Origin: Roseateles sp. DAIF2
GTDB lineage: Bacteria; Pseudomonadota; Gammaproteobacteria; Burkholderiales; Burkholderiaceae_C
Assembly (NCBI RefSeq): GCF_015624425.1
Contig: NZ_CP049919.1
Span: forward strand, 2,232,001 to 2,296,000
Reading direction: 5' to 3'
DNA length: 64,000 nucleotides
A program made the position numbers and the translations under genes. Below are positions 3,911-61,963 of this stretch, one piece after another. The first letter of the stretch is position 1; each line of letters starts with the position of its first letter. The notes below the pieces were generated by a model. That model did not search any database. It was given only the letters and a program-made list of their open reading frames with translations, and was not told the DNA's origin.

Positions 3911-6145
3911 GTGAGCAGCATCGCCCTAACCCCCCCCGCCGTCGCGCCCGACCCGGCCCAGACCCTGGATGAGCCGGAGGCCCAGGCCGGCTTCACCGAG
4001 CGGCGCGGCGAGCGTGAGGCGCTGTCGCAGCTGCGTCTCTCGGGCCTGCATTGCGCGGCCTGCGCCGGCATCATCGAGCGCGCGCTGATCGGACAGCCGG
4101 GCGTGCTGTCGGCCCGCGTCAACGCGGCGGCCGAGCGCCTCCAACTGGGTTGGGATCCGCAGGCGACGCGGCTGAGCACCTTGCTGGCGCTTGTGCGCCG
4201 CGCCGGCTATGGCGCCGAGCCGGACCTGGCGGCCAGCGCGCGCGCGCTGCGCGAGCGCGAGCAGCGCCGTGCGCTGTGGCGCCTGTTCGTCGCCGGCTTC
4301 CTGATGATGCAGGTGATGATGCTGGCCTGGCCCTCCTATGTGGCGGCGCCGGGTGAACTGTCGGACGATCTGCGCCGGCTGCTGAACTGGGGCTCCTGGG
4401 TGCTGTCCCTGCCGGTGCTGCTGTTCTCGGCCGGGCCCTTCTTCGCCGGCGCCTGGGCGCAGTTGCGCACGCGCCGCCTGGGCATGGACGTGCCGGTGGC
4501 GCTGGGCATCGCGGTGACCTTCGTCGCCAGCAGCGGCGCCACCTTCGACCCCAGCGGCGCCTTCGGCCACGAGGTCTATTTCGATTCGCTGACGATGTTC
4601 GTCAGCTTCCTGCTGGCCGGGCGCTGGCTGGAACTGCGCGCGCGGCACCGCGTCGCGCGCGAGCTGGAGGGGGCGATGGGGCGGCTGCCGGAGCTGGTGG
4701 AGCGCATCGTCGACGCAGCGAGCGGCCGCAGCGAGCGGGTGGTGCCGGCGCGGCTGCGCGTCGGCGATCTGCTGCGCGTGCCGCTGGGCGCGGCCTTCGC
4801 GGCCGACGGCCGCATCGAGCAGGGCCGGACCGCCGCCGACGAGGCGCTGCTGACCGGCGAATCCGCGCCGGTGCCCAAGGGCCCGGGCGATGCGGTGGTG
4901 GCCGGCAGCCTGAACCTGCAGGCGCCGGTGCTGATGCGGGTCGAAAAGCTCGGCGCCGACACCCGTTTCGAGGCCATCGTGCGCCTGATGCGCGAGGCGC
5001 TGACGCGCCGGCCCGAGAGCCTGGCGCTGGCCGAGCGGGTGGCCGGGCCCTTTCTGTGGGTGGTGCTGCTGCTGGCGGGCGGCGCGGCGCTGGCCTGGAG
5101 CTTTGTCGCGCCGGAGCGTGCGGTCTGGGTCGCGGTGTCGGTGCTGATCGTGACCTGCCCCTGCGCACTGTCGCTGGCCGCGCCCTCGGCCTGGCTGGCC
5201 GCGGCCGGCGCGCTGGCACGGCGCGGCCTGCTGCTGGCGCGGCTGGAGCTGCTGGAGCAGATGGCCAAGGTGGACCTGGTGGTGCTGGACAAGACCGGCA
5301 CCCTGAGCGAGGACGGCATGGCGCTGCAGCGCAGCGTCGGCGACCCGAGCCTGCTGCCGCGTGCGGCCGCCTTGGCGCGCCATTCGCAGCATGTGTTCGC
5401 GCGCGCGCTGGTCGCGGCCTGCGCGCAAGTTGATGAAGCGGCCGGCTGGTCCGAGATCGAGGAACTGCCGGGCCGCGGCCTGCAGGCGCGCGATGCAACC
5501 GGGCGGCTGTGGCGCCTGGGCTCGCCGACCTGGGTCGGCGGCGTCAGCGAAAGCGGCGGCCAGTTGGCCTTCGGGCCGGCCGAGGGTCAGGCCCTGCTGG
5601 TGCTGGAGTTCGGCGAGCGGCTGCGCGCCGATGCGCGCGAGGCCGTCGAGCGCCTGCATGCGCTGGGCCTGTCGACCCTGCTGCTGTCGGGCGATGCGCC
5701 GGCGCGGGTGGCGGCACTGGCCCGCGAGGCCGGCGTGGCGCGCGCGCTGGGCGGCGCCAGCCCCGAGGACAAGCTGGCCGAGGTGGCGCGGCTGCAGGCC
5801 CTGGGCCACCGCGTGCTGATGCTGGGCGACGGCGTCAACGACGCGCCGGTGCTGGCGCGCGCCGATGCCAGCCTGGCGATGGGGCAGGGCGCTTTGCTGG
5901 CGCGCGCCCAGGCCGACGGCGTGCTGCTGTCGGGCCGGCTGCTGGACCTGGTGCGGCTGCGCGAGCTGGCGCTGCGCACGCGCCGCGTGATCCGCCAGAA
6001 CCTGGGCTGGGCCGCCTTCTACAACGCGTCCTGCATTCCGCTGGCGCTGGCCGGCCTGCTGCCGCCCTGGGCCGCGGGCCTGGGCATGGCGCTGAGTTCG
6101 CTGTTCGTGGTGCTGAACGCGCTGCGTCTGCAGAAAGTGAGTTGA
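3911..6145 (+). CDS. ccoI: Copper-exporting P1B-type ATPase of cbb3 oxidase assembly
   Basis: This 744-residue membrane pump has all P1B hallmarks. An N-terminal heavy-metal-associated domain carries CAAC (Cys48, Cys51), the transmembrane metal site is Cys416-Pro417-Cys418, the phosphorylated Asp460 lies in DKTGTL, and GDGVNDAPVL forms the hinge. Its position directly before ccoS and ccoNOQP identifies it as CcoI/FixI, which supplies copper for the CuB site of cbb3 oxidase, rather than a general CopA detoxification pump. The GTG at 3911 was chosen. An in-frame GTG at 3890 would add seven residues but overlaps the promoter space of the divergent gene. Confidence 0.92.
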   Translation: MSSIALTPPAVAPDPAQTLDEPEAQAGFTERRGEREALSQLRLSGLHCAACAGIIERALIGQPGVLSARVNAAAERLQLGWDPQATRLSTLLALVRRAGYGAEPDLAASARALREREQRRALWRLFVAGFLMMQVMMLAWPSYVAAPGELSDDLRRLLNWGSWVLSLPVLLFSAGPFFAGAWAQLRTRRLGMDVPVALGIAVTFVASSGATFDPSGAFGHEVYFDSLTMFVSFLLAGRWLELRARHRVARELEGAMGRLPELVERIVDAASGRSERVVPARLRVGDLLRVPLGAAFAADGRIEQGRTAADEALLTGESAPVPKGPGDAVVAGSLNLQAPVLMRVEKLGADTRFEAIVRLMREALTRRPESLALAERVAGPFLWVVLLLAGGAALAWSFVAPERAVWVAVSVLIVTCPCALSLAAPSAWLAAAGALARRGLLLARLELLEQMAKVDLVVLDKTGTLSEDGMALQRSVGDPSLLPRAAALARHSQHVFARALVAACAQVDEAAGWSEIEELPGRGLQARDATGRLWRLGSPTWVGGVSESGGQLAFGPAEGQALLVLEFGERLRADAREAVERLHALGLSTLLLSGDAPARVAALAREAGVARALGGASPEDKLAEVARLQALGHRVLMLGDGVNDAPVLARADASLAMGQGALLARAQADGVLLSGRLLDLVRLRELALRTRRVIRQNLGWAAFYNASCIPLALAGLLPPWAAGLGMALSSLFVVLNALRLQKVS

Positions 6146-11310: not shown

Positions 11311-11598
11311 ATGGGCCGCCGCGCCGGTCCGCCGCTGGCGCCCGTCGCGCCGCGGTTGCGGCCACAGCCGCAGATTCAACAACGTCTGCGCCGGCGGCTG
11401 ATGGCGGCGCTGTGGCCGTCCTTCCTGATGGCCGCGGTGCTGGAGGGCCTGGTGTTCAGCCTGCTCGACCCGACCCTGCTGGAGCCGCGCATCGCTGCGG
11501 CCGGCCTGCCGCCGCTGGCGCTCTACAGCCTGGCCTTTCTGGGCTTCTGGGCCATCACGGCGTTGTCGTCCGGGTTGAGTCTGTTGCTAGCCGACTGA
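11311..11598 (+). CDS. Small two-helix membrane protein at the end of the cco cluster
   Basis: I do not recognise a named family for this 95-residue protein. An Arg/Pro/Gln-rich cytoplasmic start is followed by two hydrophobic segments (about residues 31-48 and 69-91). It begins three bases after the ccoH stop, so it is very likely co-transcribed. A role in oxidase assembly or stability is inferred from position only. The 310-bp repeat begins about 25 bases after its stop. Confidence 0.6.
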   Translation: MGRRAGPPLAPVAPRLRPQPQIQQRLRRRLMAALWPSFLMAAVLEGLVFSLLDPTLLEPRIAAAGLPPLALYSLAFLGFWAITALSSGLSLLLAD

Positions 11599-11622: not shown

Positions 11623-11933
11623 CGCAGGAGGGCGGGCAGGCCTGCTGCTGCCTGCCAGGGCCTCGCGGCCCTGGCTTTCGCCAGGCACCGGAAGTCCACC
11701 GGACTTCCGGTGTCCGGGCTCAATCCCCCGGCCGCTGCGCGGCCTCCTCCTTGACCTCCGCATCAGGCCCACCCACCCTCCTGCGTGCGCCCTGTGGCCG
11801 ATATGGGGCGTCGTCGAAGAGGCGCTGCGCCGCCAGAGCCGGGTTGCGGGTGTGCGCGCTTGCGCAGGTTAAGGAGGAGGGCCGCAGCGCGGCCCGGGGG
11901 ACACGGAGCAAGCGCGTGCACCCGCAGCCCGGC
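11623..11933. repeat. Dispersed structured repeat, copy 1
   Basis: About 310 non-coding bases reappear at 61597-61906 in the same orientation, roughly 90 percent identical by eye. Two outer stems are visible. Stem A pairs 11623-11644 with 11764-11785. Stem B pairs 11838-11862 with 11909-11933. Inside A are a perfect 12-bp hairpin (11686-11697 with 11701-11712), a hairpin at about 11656-11673 and a GGCCGC/GCGGCC hairpin near 11730-11744. Inside B is a 7-bp hairpin (11879-11895). The element starts 25 bases after the preceding stop codon and lies in the convergent gap before fnr. Function is unknown. Confidence 0.85.
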
Positions 11934-11962
11934 GATCGCCCGAGCGTCCCACGACCGAACCA

Positions 11963-11987
11963 TAAGAAAAGCGCCCCGCAGGGCGCT
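11963..11987 (-). terminator. Rho-independent terminator of fnr
   Basis: The stem 11970-11976 / 11981-11987 has loop CGCA. Read on the minus strand it is followed by TTTTCTTA. It lies about 23 bases after the fnr stop codon. The weaker T content on the other side makes it less convincing for + strand transcripts. Confidence 0.75.
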
Positions 11988-12009
11988 TCATCGTTGCAAC
12001 ATCGACCTC

Positions 12010-32075: not shown

Positions 32076-32168
32076 GGAGCTGTGACCGAGAGGCCGAAGG
32101 TGCTCCCCTGCTAAGGGAGTATGTGGGCAAAACCTGCATCGAGGGTTCGAATCCCTCCGGCTCCGCCA
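32076..32168 (+). tRNA. tRNA-Ser (anticodon GCU)
   Basis: The 93-base gene folds as a class II tRNA. The acceptor GGAGCTG pairs with CGGCTCC with one G-U pair, the D stem is ACC/GGT, and the anticodon stem CTCCC/GGGAG carries loop CTGCTAA with anticodon GCT. A long variable arm and the T arm GAGGG-TTCGAAT-CCCTC follow. The CCA end is encoded. A TATAGAAT stretch at 32055-32062 is a likely -10 element. It reads AGC and AGU codons. Confidence 0.97.
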
Positions 32169-60924: not shown

Positions 60925-61575
60925 ATGATGAGGACTGCTACCCCCGTCGCCACCCTGGGTCTGCTGGCCGCGGCCCTGCTGGCCAGCGGCTGCGCCAATA
61001 TGAGCGAGCGCGAACGCGGCACGGCCCAGGGCGCGGGCATCGGCGCCGTGGCCGGCGCGGTGATCGGCTCGGCCACCGGCGGCAAGGCCGGCCAGAGCGC
61101 GCTGATCGGCGGCGCGATCGGTGCGGTGGCCGGCAACCTCTGGTCCAAGCATCTGGAGGACAAGCGCCGCGCGCTGGAGAAGGCCAGCGAGGGCACCGGC
61201 ATCGAGGTCGGCCGCACCCAGGACAACCGCCTTAAGCTCAATGTGCCGAGCGACTTCTCCTTCGACGTCGGCCGCGCCGACATCAAGCCGCAGATGCGCC
61301 CGGTGCTCGACGAGATCGGCCGCAACCTCGACCCCAAGGTGCAGGTGACCGTGGTCGGCCATACCGACAGCACCGGCAACGATGCGATCAACAATCCGCT
61401 GTCGCTGGAGCGGGCCGAATCGGTGCGCACCTATCTGGGCAACCGCGGCGTCGCGCCGAGCCGCCTCTTCATCGAGGGCCGCGGCTCGCGCGAACCGGTC
61501 GCCAGCAACGACACCGATGCCGGCCGGGCGCAGAACCGCCGCGTCGAGATCTTCCTGACCGAGCCGGCGGGCTGA
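60925..61575 (+). CDS. OmpA-family lipoprotein with glycine-zipper region
   Basis: The 216-residue protein has a lipobox ASGC (Cys23), a glycine-zipper region (GAGIGAVAGAVIGSATGG, residues 36-75) and a C-terminal OmpA peptidoglycan-binding domain. In that domain, FDVGRADIKPQM, VVGHTDSTGND and the SLERAESVRTYL region are typical of YiaD/Pal-like proteins. It should anchor the outer membrane to peptidoglycan. AAGGAGG lies six bases before the ATG at 60925; the next codon is also ATG. The second copy of the 310-bp repeat starts 22 bases after its stop. Confidence 0.9.
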   Translation: MMRTATPVATLGLLAAALLASGCANMSERERGTAQGAGIGAVAGAVIGSATGGKAGQSALIGGAIGAVAGNLWSKHLEDKRRALEKASEGTGIEVGRTQDNRLKLNVPSDFSFDVGRADIKPQMRPVLDEIGRNLDPKVQVTVVGHTDSTGNDAINNPLSLERAESVRTYLGNRGVAPSRLFIEGRGSREPVASNDTDAGRAQNRRVEIFLTEPAG

Positions 61576-61596: not shown

Positions 61597-61906
61597 CGCA
61601 GGAGGGCGGGCAGGCCTGCTGCTGCCTGCCAGGGCTTGCGGCCTTGGCTTTCGCCAGGCACCAGAAGTCCACCGGACTTCTGGTGTCCGGGCTCAATCCC
61701 CCGGCCGCTTCGCGGCCTTCTCCTTGACCTCCGCATCAGGCCCGCCCGCCCTCCTGCTTGCGCCTCGTGGCCGGCTGGGTTTCTCGTCGAAGAGGCGCTG
61801 CGCCGGTAGAGCCGGGCTGTGGGTGTGCGCGCTTGCGCAGGTCAAGGAGGAGGGCCGCGCAGCGGCCCGGGGGACACGGAGCAAGCGCGTGCACCCGCAG
61901 TCCGGC
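61597..61906. repeat. Dispersed structured repeat, copy 2
   Basis: This is the second copy of the element at 11623-11933, same orientation. Stem A pairs 61597-61618 with 61737-61758. Stem B pairs 61811-61835 with 61882-61906. The inner 12-bp hairpin (61659-61670 with 61674-61685) carries an A-T pair where copy 1 has G-C, i.e. both sides changed. The 7-bp hairpin inside stem B keeps its stem and differs only in the loop. It lies between the OmpA-like gene and a convergent gene, as copy 1 lies after the cco cluster. Confidence 0.85.
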
Positions 61907-61937
61907 GATCACTCGGCGCATCGCGCGATCATTAAAG

Positions 61938-61963
61938 AAAAGCCCGCCGGCCGGCGGGCTTTT
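61938..61963. terminator. Bidirectional terminator after repeat copy 2
   Basis: A perfect 26-base palindrome starts with AAAAGCCCGCCGG and ends with TTTT, lying between two convergent genes. Confidence 0.85.

Follow-up and report, generated by a model that had tools for sequence, protein, structure and literature searches.

A repeated hairpin with covarying stems and a nearly fixed purine-rich loop in Roseateles sp. DAIF2 and related bacteria

REP dimers (BIME, REPIN) consist of hairpins in opposite orientation, separated by spacers of mostly 20 to 100 bp and found in tandem or convergent settings near 3' ends, as outlined in an excerpt of PMC3733652. TnpA-REP binds the REP strand alone, and a bulge in the stem matters, according to an excerpt of PMC8266576. 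The repeat examined here, hairpin B, likewise forms hairpins, of which 53 of 55 close pairs have the -+ order, lies near upstream stops and is seldom found in divergent gaps (12 of 120 units). It differs from REP in being 80 to 100 nt long instead of 20 to 40, in having a fixed loop close to the tip, enclosed by a stem whose sequence is free, in its 4 to 33 copies in the six genomes counted, in a single core shared by many genera and in being kept at orthologous sites. When 20-nt windows at the ends of 240 hairpins (4 nt of stem included) were examined, no general GTAG/CGTC tag was found. GTAG occurred at 4.6% and 0% of the ends, against a background of 3.9%, and CGTC, at 6.3% and 12.9% against 8.4%, had a mild one-sided excess. 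Because B departs from REP in both tag and size, it is REP-like rather than a REP. By this comparison, REP dimers are the nearest known system in order and placement. A word search of the main text of PMC3733652 did not return Rhodoferax, Burkholderia, Betaproteobacteria, Acidovorax or Polaromonas.

Two further systems are comparable. Integron attC sites combine a variable stem with conserved irregularities and are used on one strand. B is similar in these three respects, and no integron setting was noticed. The covariation in B is also of the kind that defines the structured RNA families of Rfam, its RNA nature being putative. When the element was compared with Rfam 15 at a lax threshold, seven matches were obtained, all far below gathering (best E 0.096), and five loci gave none at E <=0.1. 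Among the matches listed from the open-licence literature, there was no description of the element. One of the longer core strings is present in two papers and one of the 11-letter A strings in 43, and those listed were unrelated by title. PMC2755013, judged by an excerpt, concerns CRISPR. The element is thus apparently undescribed.

Parts of the two copies in the window

The window is the whole stretch of 64,000 nt that was analyzed, positions 2,232,001 to 2,296,000 of NZ_CP049919.1 (Roseateles sp. DAIF2). The original prediction described a two-copy, structured, noncoding repeat of about 310 bp in the same orientation and with about 90% identity. The copies lie at 11623-11935 and 61597-61908 on the same strand and are 91% identical, and both fold far better than shuffled sequences (z -6.9 and -7.2, respectively; 0 of 100 shuffles equaled either). 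The predicted change from G-C to A-T in the 12-bp inner stem is real, as is the shortened G-U form of the next hairpin. As had also been stated, the copies start shortly after plus-strand stop codons, 24 nt past the TGA of the ORF at 11311-11598 for copy 1 and 21 nt past the stop of the ORF at 60925-61575 for copy 2. Both lie in convergent gaps and end ahead of GC-rich, terminator-like inverted repeats. No transposase is present inside the element. At gathering scores, nothing but tRNA was found in the window by the Rfam search (a tRNA gene at 32076-32165), in agreement with the claim that no Rfam family fits.

The repeat is limited to two copies in the window only. In the DAIF2 genome, blastn returned 80 pieces of the element, of which 7 spanned 280 or more of the 313 bases of the query, and the hairpin B model (R1, see below) had 33 matches, so the idea of a two-copy repeat was rejected. 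Nor is the element unitary. Each window copy is an inverted pair (<- ->) of hairpin B, with the motif strand being minus on the left and plus on the right, and a further structured module, A, is nested in the loop of the left B, where it separates GGGGGA from the 3' arm. The description of a noncoding, structured sequence with many covarying copies stood, while that of a single 310-bp unit did not. A protein-coding origin is unlikely, since the two core strands lie at freely varying distances from each other, an argument against a reading frame.

Three parts make up hairpin B, namely a long stem whose sequence is free, an almost invariant internal loop rich in purines (AGGTNAAGGAGGA / GGGGGACACG) and, at the tip, a small apical stem. 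The long stem has some 20 to 35 bp, and the loop strands are AGGTNAAGGAGGAG and GGGGGACACG(N)A. Matches to the model span about 80 to 94 nt in most copies, with stems of at least 20 pairs. In module A, GAGCCCGGACA and TGCCTGGCGAA enclose a variable stem of about 10 bp, followed by another small hairpin. The model detects the whole right hairpins of the window copies but only the cores of the interrupted left ones (Table 1).

Table 1. Positions of hairpin B, module A and adjoining inverted repeats in the window
Feature	Positions	Strand	Remarks
Copy 1, left hairpin B, loop enlarged by nested module A	11623-11785	-	outer arms 11623-11652 / 11758-11785 pair
Copy 1, left B core strand			CTCCTCCTTGACCT, reverse of AGGTCAAGGAGGAG
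Copy 1, left B, match to model R1	11724-11754	-	24.4 bits, E 0.0033
Copy 1, module A (GAGCCCGGACA, variable stem, TGCCTGGCGAA)	11677-11722	-	
Copy 1, second small hairpin of module A	11655-11674	-	
Copy 1, left B core and apical stem	11724-11757	-	
Copy 1, right hairpin B	11838-11933	+	26-bp stem without mismatch, core 11864-11907; R1 69.1 bits, E 2.5e-13
Copy 2, left hairpin B with nested module A	61597-61757	-	partial R1 match 61697-61727, minus, 20.8 bits, E 0.021
Copy 2, module A	61650-61695	-	
Copy 2, right hairpin B	61811-61906	+	core 61837-61880; R1 68.2 bits, E 3.9e-13
Terminator-like inverted repeat beyond copy 1, outside the element	11967-11988	.	from sequence
Terminator-like inverted repeat beyond copy 2, outside the element	61938-61963	.	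from sequence

The site of copy 1 is empty in both congeners, where 121 and 130 nt separate the flanking matches, compared with 415 nt in DAIF2. B units are therefore gained or lost. The empty gap in the congeners is too diverged for a target-site duplication to be read. No ortholog of copy 2 was found in the congeners.

The strict pattern for A nested in B was found in 15 of 50 distinct A copies, 10 of these 15 being from the DAIF2 genome. Such loci comprised L032, L308, L312 and L315 in addition to those of DAIF2, and L292, L294 and L310 were added by eye. Across several genera, A is nested in the B loop at one and the same point (GGGGGA^CACG or CATG). In L037, L288, L289, L303, L309, L313 and L314, A begins with TGA, and the sequence upstream, by eye, resembles the end of a reading frame. 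A may thus supply stop codons, as GTAG REPs supply TAG.

Covariation and conservation in place of hairpin B

The model R1 was built from 23 diverse copies of B. Seeds were taken from two core lengths only, and thinning at 74% identity left 23 of 95. In this alignment, 92.6% of the cells pair, and 26 of the 29 pairs have changed on both sides. The covariation score was 0.752, against 0.080 to 0.168 when slid, and was reached by 0 of 500 shuffles. The score was 0.775 for 134 distinct matches and 0.803 for 115, both alignments having been fitted to the model. In these two sets, the number of pairs changed on both sides was not above that of the shuffles (283 and 415 of 500), and the other measures were reached by 0 of 500. 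The pairing-preserving changes first noticed in two copies are part of a strong covariation, and the evidence from these alignments is overwhelming that the structure itself is conserved, beyond the controls, while the sequence changes.

Covariation was also found in the loop. Among 240 copies (what was left of 253 once duplicates, matches below 79 nt and 2 rows whose core could not be located had been removed), the loop forms were AGGT/ACACG in 182, AAGT/ACATG in 28, AAAT/ACATT in 11 and GCAT/ACAGC in 6. According to these four forms, position 26 pairs with position 61 in all of them and position 25 with position 62 in the last two. The loop opposition A34.G55 is replaced by G34.A55. In 74 copies outside the exact pattern, the counts were 59 and 12, respectively, with A.A, G.G and C.G found once each. 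A second count in 238 copies, most of which had been chosen by the A/G pattern, gave 226 A/G, 10 G/A, 1 G/G and 1 C/G. This unusual covariation of A.G and G.A points to a nucleic-acid module whose structure could be solved.

Module A showed covariation of its own. Eight of its 17 pairs have changed on both sides, a number reached by 3 of 500 shuffles, and the score was 0.404, compared with at most 0.118 when slid. Its strand test, with small counts, gave 9 G.T and 4 A.C in 38 distinct stems. The module was present in 31 of 250 same-family genomes, DAIF2 included, with a control of 0.

We compared B at orthologous sites by means of 134 hairpin pairs from 13 locus groups. These pairs are not independent, 73 of them coming from one group. 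Flanks more than 97% identical were left out, and within the groups no two loci were more than 91% identical in the flanks. Mean flank identity was 80.6% and the arms were 29% different; core identity was 94%, a value inflated because the loci were fetched by the exact core. Among the 2,678 orthologous stem pairs, 1,616 were the same, 439 had changed on both sides and still paired, 389 had changed on one side and still paired, 212 were lost or gained and 22 were unpaired in both. The 439 paired both-side changes exceed the 283 both-side changes, paired or not, expected by independence. In the gap adjoining rsmG (so named in one representative), five loci keep the <- -> pair with arms differing by up to 80% and 95%. 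In ten loci, B occupies the gap flanked by a gene for a carboxyltransferase (mmdA being the best NCBIfam match, at a score below its cut-off) and one for a biotin carboxylase (so named in one representative), which we read as genes of propionyl-CoA carboxylase. Nine of the ten have the pair, one of these with a partly matching second hairpin, and L135 has a single hairpin. The fold of the strand with AGGTNAAGGAGGA...GGGGGACACG is kept in place by selection over genus-level divergence.

Within genomes, the stems of the fetched hairpins resembled each other to about the same degree as random pairs do in 5 of the 9 genomes tested (0.40 to 0.46, versus 0.41) and more closely in the other 4 (0.59 to 0.80). 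Many copies therefore look old, and some genomes show copying.

Strand, genomic setting and distribution

Each G.T pair of the motif strand corresponds to A.C on the opposite strand, so that a cruciform, or selection on either strand, predicts equal numbers of the two. In the stems of 175 distinct copies chosen by the core alone, 326 G.T and 20 A.C were counted. Between tandem genes, the ratio was 105:4 for B in the sense orientation (54 hairpins) and 108:8 in the antisense orientation (53 hairpins), stems with more than five nonpairs having been left out. In 60 inverted pairs, it was 105:7 for the left and 114:7 for the right hairpins. Three stem positions that belong to an internal loop in type II were left out of the strand counts. 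The A.C counts were within the range of transversion mismatches (all 240 model matches), as expected for G.U in RNA. Since left and right hairpins lie on opposite strands of one spot, a mutation bias linked to replication or transcription should cancel. The similar bias in both hairpins of a pair therefore means that the motif strand, folded as a single strand, is what selection sees. Solo hairpins had no bias with respect to the replication strand, as judged by GC skew (33 versus 45, p 0.21). From these counts, B is very probably a strand-specific folded element under selection. The selected strand would be RNA or ssDNA, RNA being slightly preferred. Counting G.T and A.C in both halves of inverted pairs offers a general way to tell selection on RNA or ssDNA from the upkeep of a cruciform or palindrome, a question that persists for REP-like repeats.

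The setting was recorded for 120 units with two called neighbors. Of these, 79 were in tandem, 29 in convergent and 12 in divergent gaps; all gaps of at least 60 nt in the same loci, element-bearing ones included, numbered 331, 70 and 112, respectively. In tandem gaps, 56 of 79 units were nearer the upstream stop, and divergent gaps held 7 of 50 pairs and 5 of 70 solos. Close pairs were 53 -+ and 2 +- (44 of 45 with a stricter pattern), and the spacer was 48 to 72 nt in 45 of 60 pairs. Solo hairpins showed no bias relative to the neighboring genes (22 sense, 24 antisense). Neither 58 spacers nor 112 stretches upstream had a promoter-like excess. Dropped before the setting was counted were 14 solos close to the end of a locus, 5 units lacking two neighbors, 18 that lie within a called ORF, and predicted ORFs shorter than 450 nt that overlap a hairpin. 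Genes for the setting, orthology and sense/antisense counts were called with a home-made codon-usage caller, not a standard program. On the minus strand of L193 (1644-5261), a B hairpin lies within one long open frame that, by eye, joins permease-like and sensor-kinase-like parts, so gene calls fused across B are possible in annotations.

Of 120 relatives (DAIF2 included), 20 have the exact B core. All 20 are among the 72 genomes of the same family, and none is among the 48 that represent other families of the order; the control with the backward pattern was 0 throughout the 120 genomes. Matches to R1 per genome (E <=0.001) were 33 in DAIF2, 26 each in G001 and G029, 12 in G131 and 4 each in G226 and G393. 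In 369 genomes of the class, at E <=1e-4, matches occurred in at least four, namely DAIF2, one of the same family and two of another family (f61), a lower bound because the filters were strict and no more than 12 candidates were scored. Among the matches listed for the core (80 of at least 120), Rhodoferax was the commonest label; others were Hydrogenophaga, Curvibacter, Aquabacterium, Methylibium, Rhizobacter and unnamed Burkholderiales, together with two rows from an Oxalobacteraceae isolate and one Janthinobacterium MAG. In viral contigs, the core was found in one and the A pattern in none, and blastn of the element gave no match in plasmid and phage collections. In G131 and G393, which belong to a distant family of the same class, B mostly has AAGT/ACATG and AAAT/ACATT loops and quite different stems. 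Its presence there may reflect old ancestry or horizontal spread.

Possible roles of the folded strand

Given selection on one strand, the element is probably real in function. The mechanism that we tentatively prefer, on the comparative data above, is one in which the folded motif strand is RNA. Transcripts running past the neighboring stop codon, or antisense ones from the other side, would enter the unit, and the <- -> arrangement means that a transcript from either direction would end with one B hairpin in the active sense. A putative host protein would recognize the purine loop, which the long stem presents, and would end, trim or protect the RNA 3' end. Pairs would serve both directions and solos one, and module A in the left loop could be a second docking fold. 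Placement at gene ends, tolerance of G.U-like pairs and upkeep at fixed sites fit a fold acting on transcript ends. Against this, antisense-oriented copies are selected equally strongly, no promoters were seen, solo hairpins have no T-run of at least 4 close to the model end (0 of 117), and units are also found in divergent gaps. Because solos lack a sense bias, many of them would need antisense transcription.

A bolder and rather doubtful form of the RNA reading is that B represents a new class of structured regulators that act on transcript ends in a strand-specific way and contain a new three-dimensional module, spread in Comamonadaceae-type bacteria and another family of the class. Its core would be the opposed purine strands GG-A-GG / GG-G-GG, in which A and G are interchangeable almost only as A.G or G.A. 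It might take the shape of a hairpin-capped, noncanonical purine-purine helix or of a two-tier G-quadruplex, docked on the free-sequence stem, and nested module A would be a second such class. If the general account of B holds, many Comamonadaceae-type bacteria would carry up to about 30 copies per genome of a strongly selected fold without an Rfam 15 entry.

It is also possible, though we favor it less than RNA, that B is a site in ssDNA, where the motif strand folds in unwound DNA (a fork or an R-loop) and an enzyme specific for single strands binds or cuts it, as TnpA-REP acts on REP hairpins. The <- -> pair would then be a REPIN-like dimer that spread in trans long ago. Strand specificity independent of gene direction, the nearly uniform -+ order and narrow spacers of close pairs, the lack of blastn matches among plasmid or phage records, the site of copy 1 empty in two congeners and the stems more alike than random in 4 of 9 genomes, as copying would give, all agree with such a site, as does the REP precedent of a single bound strand with an important stem bulge (PMC8266576, excerpt). 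The selection in place at orthologous sites, however, exceeds the need of mobility; in 5 of 9 genomes, the stems differ about as much as random pairs do; and there is no consistent GTAG/CGTC tag. Nor do Y1 transposases track B. Of the 20 genomes that have the B core, 18 have Y1 transposases, as do 68 of the 100 that lack it, and B is present without any Y1 match in G086 (100% complete) and G066 (74%). No linked RAYT was found, the two Y1 places of DAIF2 being at least 20 kb from every listed B place, and a RAYT/Y1 partner is thus not supported. Four wide intervals between B copies (in L107, L148, L193 and L240) hold, by eye, only ordinary-looking host ORFs, which also speaks against an autonomous element between distant copies.

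Far less probable is a plain MITE, in which B would be an internal part of a TIR-flanked, nonautonomous transposon and its structure incidental. Some DAIF2 copies do lie between GGCTCTTTG... inverted repeats and resemble MITEs with 8-bp duplications. The 8-base flanks match at 71 of 104 positions, compared with 39.4 when shuffled (0 of 2,000), in the 13 of 29 scanned loci with both ends, so a target-site duplication is present for these 13 TIR copies as a group. The window copies, by contrast, are without TIR (no match within the window at <=3 mismatches), and covariation and strand bias show that the structure of B is itself selected, as is its loop. A plain MITE is thereby refuted for the window copies and for the structure, and holds for a subset of DAIF2 copies. 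The TIR search covered the DAIF2 genome, and the TIR is also visible by eye in the congener locus L054. The MITE-like version, with TIRs GGCTCTTTGCGCGTTGA / GGCTCTTTGTTCATTGA, includes L004, L006, L010, L013, L017 and other DAIF2 copies, several of which are inserted in what seems to be an intrinsic terminator's T-tract; the target duplications are 8 bp long and rich in T. Its ends may be ISL3-like. An ISL3 parent was rejected, the only ISL3 match in the DAIF2 genome (29.6 bits) being away from the TIR matches, and no autonomous partner of the TIR-flanked version was found in that genome.

Two other explanations are scarcely credible. A bidirectional intrinsic terminator would suit a hairpin that follows stop codons and lies between convergent genes, but a T-run of at least 4 within about 25 nt of the model end was found in 0 of 117 solo hairpins (the true stem can exceed the model), separate terminator-like repeats follow both window copies, and a terminator has no need of a fixed purine loop. 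Upkeep of the palindrome by arm-to-arm template switching (quasi-palindrome correction), with no selection involved, would explain arms that change in concert at orthologous sites but predicts equal G.T and A.C, whereas about 16:1 was observed, alike on opposite strands of a pair, and would turn the conserved A.G / G.A opposition into Watson-Crick pairs.

Other sequences are associated with B in a few loci. L139 and L227, which are different records, have a common insert, GTGGACTTGGGGTTTTGCC, between the B stem and the AAGT/AAAT loop strand. In L107, at 1300-1500 and 5200-5380, another repeated sequence (around CAGCTGCGGCGGACCCCTTCGGGGCAACCTG) adjoins copies of B.
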